Position numbers and translations under genes: made by a program. Positions 20,154 to 21,789 of a stretch of 64,000 nucleotides of DNA are shown here, piece after piece (positions within the stretch are counted from its first letter, which is position 1; each line of letters begins with the position of its first letter). Where the stretch lies: the NCBI GenBank assembly GCA_026625165.1, contig CP112999.1, positions 620,001 through 684,000 of the forward strand, given 5' to 3'. The notes under the pieces are model-generated. The model did no database searches. It saw only the letters and a program-made list of their open reading frames with translations, and was not told where the DNA came from. This DNA comes from Methanoregula sp. Lineage in GTDB: Archaea > Halobacteriota > Methanomicrobia > Methanomicrobiales > Methanospirillaceae.

Positions 20154-21137
20154 ATGCGCTGCTCTGCGATCACAGGGACGCAGTTCTCTGCCCATGACTG
20201 TGCCGGGCACCCCGAGTCCAATAACCGGCTGATAACTGCCTGCAGCGGGCTGGATCCCCGGTGCCCTGTGTATCCCCCGCAGGCATGTCCGATGGAAGAT
20301 CTCGGACGCATCCATTCTCCTTCTTATATCGCCATGCTGCAGCAACGGTGTTTAGGCACAAACGGTGTGGCATTCCTTGATCCCGACACCTATATCACGC
20401 GGCATTCCTTTGATATCGCAAATCTCGCGGCCGGGAGCGCTGTTGCCGCTGCGGACCGTGCCCTTTCCGGTGAGCACTGTTTTGCGCTGGTGCGACCCCC
20501 CGGCCATCATGCGGAACATAACCGGGCGATGGGGTTCTGCCTGTTGAACAATGCCGCTGTTGCTGCCGCTGCTGCGTTGAAAAGCTCGGACCGCATTGCG
20601 ATTGTCGACTGGGACAATCATCATGGCAACGGCACCCAGCACGCATTTTTTTCCAGCAACCAGGTGTTATACTGTTCTGTGCACCAGCGGGATGCTTTCC
20701 CCTGCACCGGCAGTATCGGTGAGACCGGGACCGGAGACGGTGCCGGGTTCAACATCAATGCCCCGATTTATGCCGGCGCCGGCATTGCAGATTACACATG
20801 CGTCTTTTCTGATGTATTTGTCCCGGCTCTTGTCCGGTTCCGGCCGGAATTGATCATTGTTTCTGCGGGTCAGGACATACTCTTTGATGATCCGCTTGGC
20901 ATGATGGAAGTCATGCCTCAGCATTTTGAACTCCTCACAAGGATGCTTGCGGTATCTACCGGTGCCCCGATCGCCCTTGTTCTGGAGGGCGGGTACAGCC
21001 CGTCCCATGGAAAAGCGGTTGCGGGCATCTTTGCTGGTCTGCGGTCTGAACGCGACACTGGAGATGAGGTACGACAACCGCAGCGAAGCACTCAGGAACT
21101 GGTTTCACACCTCAAAAAGATCCACCGGATTGGATGA
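20154..21137 (+). CDS. histone deacetylase family (class II-like) hydrolase
   Basis: The 327-residue protein belongs to the arginase/deacetylase superfamily. It has RPPGHHAE near residue 112, GFCLLNNAA near 124, the zinc ligands in DWDNHHGNGT near 145, and the third ligand in SAGQDILFDDPLG near 242, so the zinc site appears intact. Substrates may be acetyl-lysine proteins, acetylpolyamines or similar amides. In this organism a histone is present, but archaeal histones lack acetylated tails, so the name does not prove the substrate. Confidence 0.92.
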   Translation: MRCSAITGTQFSAHDCAGHPESNNRLITACSGLDPRCPVYPPQACPMEDLGRIHSPSYIAMLQQRCLGTNGVAFLDPDTYITRHSFDIANLAAGSAVAAADRALSGEHCFALVRPPGHHAEHNRAMGFCLLNNAAVAAAAALKSSDRIAIVDWDNHHGNGTQHAFFSSNQVLYCSVHQRDAFPCTGSIGETGTGDGAGFNINAPIYAGAGIADYTCVFSDVFVPALVRFRPELIIVSAGQDILFDDPLGMMEVMPQHFELLTRMLAVSTGAPIALVLEGGYSPSHGKAVAGIFAGLRSERDTGDEVRQPQRSTQELVSHLKKIHRIG

Positions 21138-21142
21138 CTGTT

Positions 21143-21565
21143 TCAGGGAGACGGCAGGACATCGATCTCCATGTGACTGATCCGAAAGTAAATATTTTTC
21201 GTCTGGATAATCGGCCAGAGCTCATAGAGGAGAACCGTTACGGGTTCCCACATCGCAGCCCACCCGATGATCAGGAGTGCATCGGCGAAGAGCTAAGCAA
21301 GCACCCCGGGGATCCCCGATCAAGTCTGGTGCCTGTGTCACTTATGTTCGCACTCGGAAACTCTCATCAAACAGTGCATCGAGGAGCGCACCTGTCGCCC
21401 GGAAGTCCCCCGGCCTCCCGGGGGATTCAGTGGCTTTCTATCGGTTTGAAGGCTCTCATCCGCAAGCATCCTGAAATGATGGCCAATCCGTTTATCAGGT
21501 TCACCCTCAGGTTCTGGTTCTTTTATATCCGGCCGGGAGGACATATCAGGATCCTGCTCTGCCAT
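21143..21565 (-). pseudogene. decayed membrane-protein gene (frameshifts and stops)
   Basis: Reading the minus strand in three frames recovers one coherent protein. It starts at an ATG at 21565 (MAEQDPDMSSRPDIKEPEPE) behind a GAGG site, continues in a second frame as ATGALLDALFDESFRVRT, hits TAA, resumes as VTQAPDLIGD, shifts again, passes a TAG, and ends with ALLIIGWAAMWEPVTVLLYE and WPIIQTKNIYFRISHMEI before TGA at 21143. The last part looks like a membrane helix with a cytoplasmic tail. At least two frameshifts and two stops are needed, so it is dead. It abuts the convergent deacetylase gene and a MITE-like element. Confidence 0.6.
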
Positions 21566-21617: not shown

Positions 21618-21625
21618 TAAAATTC
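21618..21625. repeat. target-site duplication, left copy
   Basis: TAAAATTC directly precedes the left inverted repeat of the MITE-like element. An identical copy is at 21782-21789, directly after the right end and just before the stop codon of the RDD-family gene. Confidence 0.75.
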
Positions 21626-21781
21626 GGCTCTGTAGAAAACCTCGTTTCTATTATCCATATTGCCCTAACTTGTTCCAGTGATATCGCATTGTGGGGGATG
21701 CGGCAGCGGCGGGGGCGCAAGCATCAGCCGAAGCCCCCAAGAGCGTTAAGAGCTGGGATTTCTAAGCATTTTTACAGAGCC
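21626..21781. mobile_element. MITE-like element, 156 bp, with terminal inverted repeats and 8-bp target duplication
   Basis: The left end GGCTCTGTAGAAA (21626-21638) is repeated inverted at the right end, TTTTTACAGAGCC (21769-21781), with one mismatch in 13. The element is flanked on both sides by the identical octamer TAAAATTC (21618-21625 and 21782-21789), a target-site duplication. It encodes no protein, so it is a non-autonomous element moved by a transposase elsewhere. An 8-bp duplication occurs in several IS families, including IS6 and IS1595; the parent is not in this window. Confidence 0.8.
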
Positions 21782-21789
21782 TAAAATTC
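21782..21789. repeat. target-site duplication, right copy
   Basis: TAAAATTC directly follows the right inverted repeat of the MITE-like element and matches 21618-21625 perfectly. Confidence 0.75.

Follow-up and report, generated by a model that had tools for sequence, protein, structure and literature searches.

MITEs are usually regarded as remnants of insertion sequences (IS), with an interior that carries no information. Better-known systems with which the element described here can be compared come from bacteria. The streptococcal BOX elements are composite, with a variable number of boxB modules, and in S. suis two kinds of end module occur around the same boxB (PMC3049150). Two reports on bacterial REP sequences describe tagged repeats, among them CGTC families that lack a transposase and dimers embedded in larger palindromes (PMC3733652), and REPINs, which are inverted REP doublets (PMC3116915). 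Archaeal MITEs have been listed in several genera in a 2024 review of prokaryotic MITEs, and the words ‘methanogen’, ‘modular’ and ‘nested’ are absent from its text (PMC10969869). Among open-licence papers, we found nothing recognisable as the description of an archaeal repeat of the core type reported below.

The element studied here lies in a window of 64,000 nucleotides (the whole stretch of DNA that was analysed) from the genome of a Methanoregula sp., which consists of one contig of 2,174,862 bp (G000:C1). Direct reading placed an element of 156 bp at window positions 21626-21781, flanked on both sides by TAAAATTC. The left terminal inverted repeat GGCTCTGTAGAAA (21626-21638, plus strand) and the right terminal inverted repeat TTTTTACAGAGCC (21769-21781, minus strand, where it reads GGCTCTGTAAAAA) are complementary at 12 of 13 positions, the single mismatch being that between GGCTCTGTAGAAA and GGCTCTGTAAAAA, and the two target-site duplications (21618-21625 and 21782-21789, without strand) are identical at 8/8 positions. 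The length of 156 bp, the 13-bp inverted ends and the perfect 8-bp duplication of the original prediction were thus all borne out; the ends and the duplication were also recovered independently by a repeat finder, and comparisons of copies and of flanks agreed with the left end and with both octamers, respectively. Across the whole genome, the end 13-mer with at most one mismatch occurred 20 times on each strand, compared with 1 and 0 occurrences on the two strands for the reversed-pattern control, and many of these matches pair up as the ends of additional elements; chance is therefore no explanation for the inverted ends. Between the ends there is no ORF of 70 aa or more. A left arm (21626-21681, plus strand), common to a group of copies in the genome that we call family 1, and a right arm (21747-21781, plus strand), delimited by comparison with other genomic copies, together form a shell around a GC-rich structured repeat, the core (TATCGC...GAGCGT; 21682-21746, plus strand).

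Our reading of the insertion site agrees with the predicted placement between a dead gene and the very end of an RDD gene. Only 1 bp separates the second octamer from the stop codon of a gene for an RDD-family membrane protein (Pfam PF06271; 21791-22303, minus strand), an open reading frame identified by its profile match. On the other side, a gene fragment (21131-21294, minus strand) shows an alignment of 164 bp to the sequence after the histone-deacetylase gene of a relative (G006), where the counterpart is a longer, open frame, and the similarity then stops; this supports the description of the neighbour as a gene remnant. The first 700 bp after the RDD stop contained neither element ends nor the core in any of the four relatives with an orthologous RDD gene (4/4), which is an absence and not a clean empty site, since the relatives' sequence past the stop showed no alignment by eye with the window. 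These sequence comparisons support an insertion specific to this lineage.

The same genome contains seven 1,009-bp copies of an IS with like ends, six of which were examined individually and show no more than one base of difference. The motif GGCTCTGTAGAAAACCT of the left terminal inverted repeat of the window element matches the right end of this IS. Its frame matches DDE_Tnp_1 (PF01609) and the NCBI model for IS5-family transposases (NF033579) with 195.6 bits, above the cut-off of 140, and five of the seven copies have perfect 8-bp duplications, a length reminiscent of the ISH1 subgroup of the IS5 family. Two copies in opposite orientation, at genome positions 911197-912205 and 1207597-1208605, have exchanged the halves of their duplications (GAAAAATC/GTTTTTTT and GATTTTTC/AAAAAAAC), as expected from an inversion of about 295 kb between them by recombination. 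The search for a full IS with the same ends and a transposase, as the original prediction proposed, was therefore successful, and the finding set out in advance as evidence against a MITE (the same sequence in all relatives and no IS with matching ends) was not what we observed, given this intact IS and the absence from the four relatives. Short, without a transposase, bounded by terminal inverted repeats and a duplication and accompanied by an autonomous relative, the window element has the features of a MITE, a reading that is well supported by the seven near-identical IS with like ends in the same genome. Transposition of a non-autonomous, MITE-like element thus stood; the description was incomplete in that the middle is an independent structured repeat and not simply an IS remnant.

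The element would be mobilised in trans by the IS5-family transposase; the distribution of the enzyme among relatives counts against this reading. At a threshold of 1e-20, the IS5-family transposase was present in 14 of 61 genomes and gave no match in G001, G002, G005, G006 and G007, five of the six relatives in the genus with matches to the window element, nor in G019, where copies with GGCTCTGTTGA ends occur. In these genomes the mobiliser may have been lost, may be a different one or may have gone unsampled. Several contigs of another relative in the genus (G004) together gave 17 matches to the IS5-family transposase, many of them fragments or interrupted by stops, which suggests an older burst of this IS.

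Besides the window copy, family 1 includes elements at genome positions 235481, 862673, 1299609 and 117253 (the last with one decayed end), and its copies range from 156 to 462 bp, with lengths of 156, 203, 256, 315 and 462 bp. They share with the window element a left-hand stretch of as much as 98 bp and a right-hand one of about 48-56 bp, and differ in the middle; the left-hand matches in the four other copies (84-98 bp, 96-100% identity) extend into the core. The extra palindromic hairpin modules of the sister copies sit in the core loop (pocket B; 21717-21732, plus strand, in the window copy), and in the 462-bp copy four modules of a single type follow one another, built on GAAGACATCC..GATGTCTTC. 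In single-strand folding, this longest copy is far more stable than its shuffles (z -9.1); for the window element the margin is moderate (z -2.6). A second family (867411, 968651, 1885628, 2022590, 1241416 and 914975) has the same terminal bases, different arms and related middle modules in reverse orientation. The flanks of 12 MITE copies, a set without the copy at 117253 and without a chimera at 852198, revealed four perfect duplications (the window copy included) and two at 7/8, and at most three of eight bases matched in three copies; among mismatched flank pairings used as a control, 1 of 342 reached 8/8. Single ends occur at 1025574, 1396660 and 1628933. Near the family-1 copy at 1299609, at approximately 1298882-1298945, an element of about 63 bp has no core and is bounded by a GGGTAAGGTA-type end and a GGGTATAGTCCC-type end.

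When relatives were searched with the whole element, the widespread part proved to be the middle and not the ends. An alignment of 20 core examples spans 66 columns (TATCGCATnnTGGGGGATGCCnCAGCGGCGGGGGCG..CGAAGCCCCCAAGAGCGT), and a covariance model gave core matches in 23 of the 120 genomes searched from the order, and none in the other 97. Four genomes had from at least 39 to at least 44 matches each (these counts are lower bounds, with 44 candidates scored per genome), and the source genome had 12 at E <=0.1. A pattern scan of one genome per species in 84,980 species gave 109 stretches, nearly all in Methanoregula, Methanolinea or other Methanomicrobiales. Five matches were bacterial (L113, L157, L158, L160 and L171) and were taken for chance; two of these loci, L113 and L171, both in Treponema MAGs, match the core pattern exactly. 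As to a viral carrier, we rejected it on finding no match in a phage collection and no occurrence of the core pattern in viral contigs.

This distribution bears on one alternative, namely that the IS lost its interior to give a common MITE whose GC-rich middle is mere chance filler. Such elements do exist in this genome: two of 93-94 bp (1231740 and 1368359) are plain IS derivatives of exactly this kind, with 78-82% identity to the first 68-69 bases of the IS, and the ends of the window element match the IS as well. The core interior of the window element has no match in the IS, however, and the IS used as a query retrieved, besides its own copies, these two deletion MITEs only and no core elements. 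Moreover, the interior has conserved counterparts in further families of the order and occurs within different shells, which disfavours filler and makes the deletion origin quite improbable. The preferred reading, to which we give a probability of roughly 0.78, is that of a composite MITE, in which an IS5-type shell moved in trans encloses a 65-bp core that is not IS-derived and belongs to a dispersed repeat family of the Methanomicrobiales.

The core of the composite element is organised around a stem of GGGGGC (21711-21716) and GCCCCC (21733-21738), within which the loop holds an inner hairpin (21720-21722 pairing with 21727-21729; all on the plus strand, from the alignment and its covariation). 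Among core copies, this inner hairpin remains paired although its bases vary: 95.9% of cells were paired compared with 90.5% in shuffled alignments, none of 500 shuffles reached so high a value, and the pair at columns 41-48 is GC in nine rows and CG in eight. For two of the five covariation measures, change on both sides and further pair types, shuffles equalled the alignment in 163 and 127 of 500 cases, respectively. In the window copy one of the three pairs, 21720 (A) with 21729 (C), is unpaired, and in other genomes longer core loops extend the inner hairpin by more complementary bases. RNAalifold alone recovered only seven pairs from the core alignment, and the single-strand fold of the window core is only modestly better than shuffles (z -1.85). 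Identity with a known RNA family was considered and discarded, with nothing credible in Rfam for the window region or the core-bearing loci: 12 such loci gave no match for the core among 4,227 models at E <=0.1, and the sole match in the window region (E 0.92) lay outside the element.

The core might also be a functional structured RNA, or a signal resembling a terminator or a 3' end, that is kept by the host and for which the shell is a vehicle. Covariation of the inner hairpin would be consistent with this, as would the unpaired bases of the core, which are strongly conserved across two families. Genomic context could be read in the same way, given that cores are mostly intergenic: 19 of 86 fell within a frame of at least 110 aa, compared with 698 of 860 random points (the five bacterial matches and cores longer than 140 bp were dropped from this count). 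Few intergenic cores lie between divergent genes, with 27 tandem, 22 convergent and 6 divergent neighbour pairs among 55, against 84, 48 and 43, respectively, in a baseline of 175 gaps longer than 100 bp. An intergenic bias is nevertheless expected of any repeat that is costly within genes, and a host-maintained signal sits poorly with the 97 genomes of the order that gave no match, the high and variable copy number, the tandem arrays, the absence of the element from the orthologous RDD site in the relatives and the lack of an Rfam match. We consider a host function of this kind unlikely, and the core would appear to be mainly selfish rather than useful to its host.

Many cores occur close together. 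Among neighbouring matches no more than 250 bp apart in a model search of 99 loci (154 matches, 150 of them aligned), the members of 22 pairs were inverted relative to each other, in 20 cases with the GAGCGTC ends outward, and those of 11 pairs shared one orientation, a few pairs being counted twice since some of the 99 loci overlap. The inverted doublets are found mainly outside the genus of the window, where the copy is a single core. At one locus (L282, G015:C46:52300-54600), core-bearing tandem units of about 215 bp each also have an inverted TATCGC half. The doublets invite comparison with REPINs and with the explanation of the core as a REP/REPIN of archaea that a Y1 transposase of the RAYT type would move. 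We ruled out RAYT mobilisation, which has only a minimal probability in our view, because Y1_Tnp (PF01797) was present in 0 of 11 core-bearing genomes and in 5 of 9 genomes without a core match; furthermore, the IS200-type Y1 subclass is the only one reported from archaea in a survey (PMC6006769).

The shells around the core are of more than one kind. Around 158 core places, a set that is biased because part of it was gathered by searches with whole elements, and in which some places located by regular expression are merged or doubtful (long pockets) and were kept in the counts, inward IS5-like ends (GGCTCTGTWGA) were found on both sides within 350 bp in 17 cases and GGGTAWAGTV ends in 7, with none for either motif in the wrong-strand control; the reversed GGGTAWAGTV pattern gave 0, and 1 on the wrong strand. 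A shell-neutral subset of 92 places from the pattern scan, which excluded the five bacterial loci as unlikely cores, included four with IS5-like and two with GGGTAWAGTV ends on both sides (controls 0 and 0). At least one IS5-like end was present at 20 of these places and at least one GGGTA-type end at 9 (controls 2 and 4), which leaves most cores without a recognisable shell. A blind search for inverted ends proved weak, with 13 of 158 places exceeding the 99th percentile for mismatched pairs and GGCTCTGTAGAAA ends accounting for several of these, and the directed motif counts with controls were used for this reason. The second shell, GGGTATAGTCC...CTATACCC, measures 269-270 bp and occurs twice in the source genome and in two relatives of the genus. 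Its GGGTATAGTCC-type ends are unrelated to the IS5-like ends, and no autonomous IS was found for it, the pairs of such ends in the genus being 194-272 bp apart. One locus of the source genome (L248, G000:C1:1963304-1963366) has a diverged core within a decayed GGGTAT-type shell. In a different genus of the same family (G019, L280), an inverted core doublet lies between GGCTCTGTTGACATC ends.

The chimera at genome position 852198 (404 bp) combines the right half of family 1 with a third type of left end, GGGTAAGATACC..., and the switch between end types lies inside the core. The element has no shared flanks. Recombination within the core would account for this arrangement, although two abutting events could also have produced it.

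Taken together, these observations would be consistent with the following mechanism for the composite MITE. The ends of the shell match the host's IS5-family element, and its DDE transposase, supplied in trans, would act at the GGCTCTGTAGAAA ends and generate 8-bp AT-rich duplications; in this way the window copy would have inserted with the gene remnant on one side and the end of the RDD gene on the other. Its cargo is the 65-bp structured core, a member of the dispersed Methanomicrobiales family and not a product of the IS. No transposase of the core's own was found, and within the genus IS-ended shells would carry the core along inside them. Where two elements have the core in common, recombination may swap one end for another, as in the one chimera seen, and the core loop carries hairpin modules in varying number and order, much as BOX elements do. 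A further proposal, which we advance tentatively and rate at somewhat less than even odds, is that the core is a lineage of its own, conserved in structure and lacking a transposase, that survives by moving from shell to shell, taken into successive IS-ended MITE families by recombination inside the core, and grows or shrinks through the hairpin modules of its loop.

Comparison with the systems described above reveals likenesses and differences. Like IS5-family MITEs, the window element is short, non-autonomous and intergenic, with the ends of a resident IS and 8-bp duplications; unlike them, its interior is a separate, modular repeat family rather than the remnant of an IS deletion. Like the Streptococcus BOX (PMC3049150), the core elements are composite, with a variable number of modules and differing shells round the same core. 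The likeness is one of architecture, namely variable modules between constant ends, as found here in family 1. However, the element is archaeal, its ends are traced to an intact IS, and the core is also found without recognised ends, as inverted doublets and in tandem arrays. As in the REP and REPIN systems (PMC3733652, PMC3116915), the core is dispersed, intergenic, palindromic and often present as inverted doublets, and, like the CGTC REPs (PMC3733652), it has no dedicated transposase. A further likeness is that some bacterial REP dimers lie within larger palindromes. It differs from them in its greater length (about 50-65 bp), its two-part stem, the lack of a Y1 transposase and its archaeal host. 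In addition, the core stem is followed by AAGAGCGTC, and the CGTC-like end lies beyond an AAGAG spacer, unlike the stem-adjacent tags of GTAG/CGTC-tagged REPs.

In the window element, no part is more widely conserved than the interior, which outlasts its ends. The finding goes beyond a routine MITE in that a conserved and independent repeat family makes up the interior, with shells that appear exchangeable. If the core does form an independent lineage, archaea would have an equivalent of the BOX and REPIN elements, and the chimera would offer a direct view of shell exchange. The complete source genome with its apparently young IS makes shell swapping testable, and, if true, such swapping would show that repeats without a transposase, for example the bacterial CGTC REPs, can spread by borrowing the ends of successive IS.
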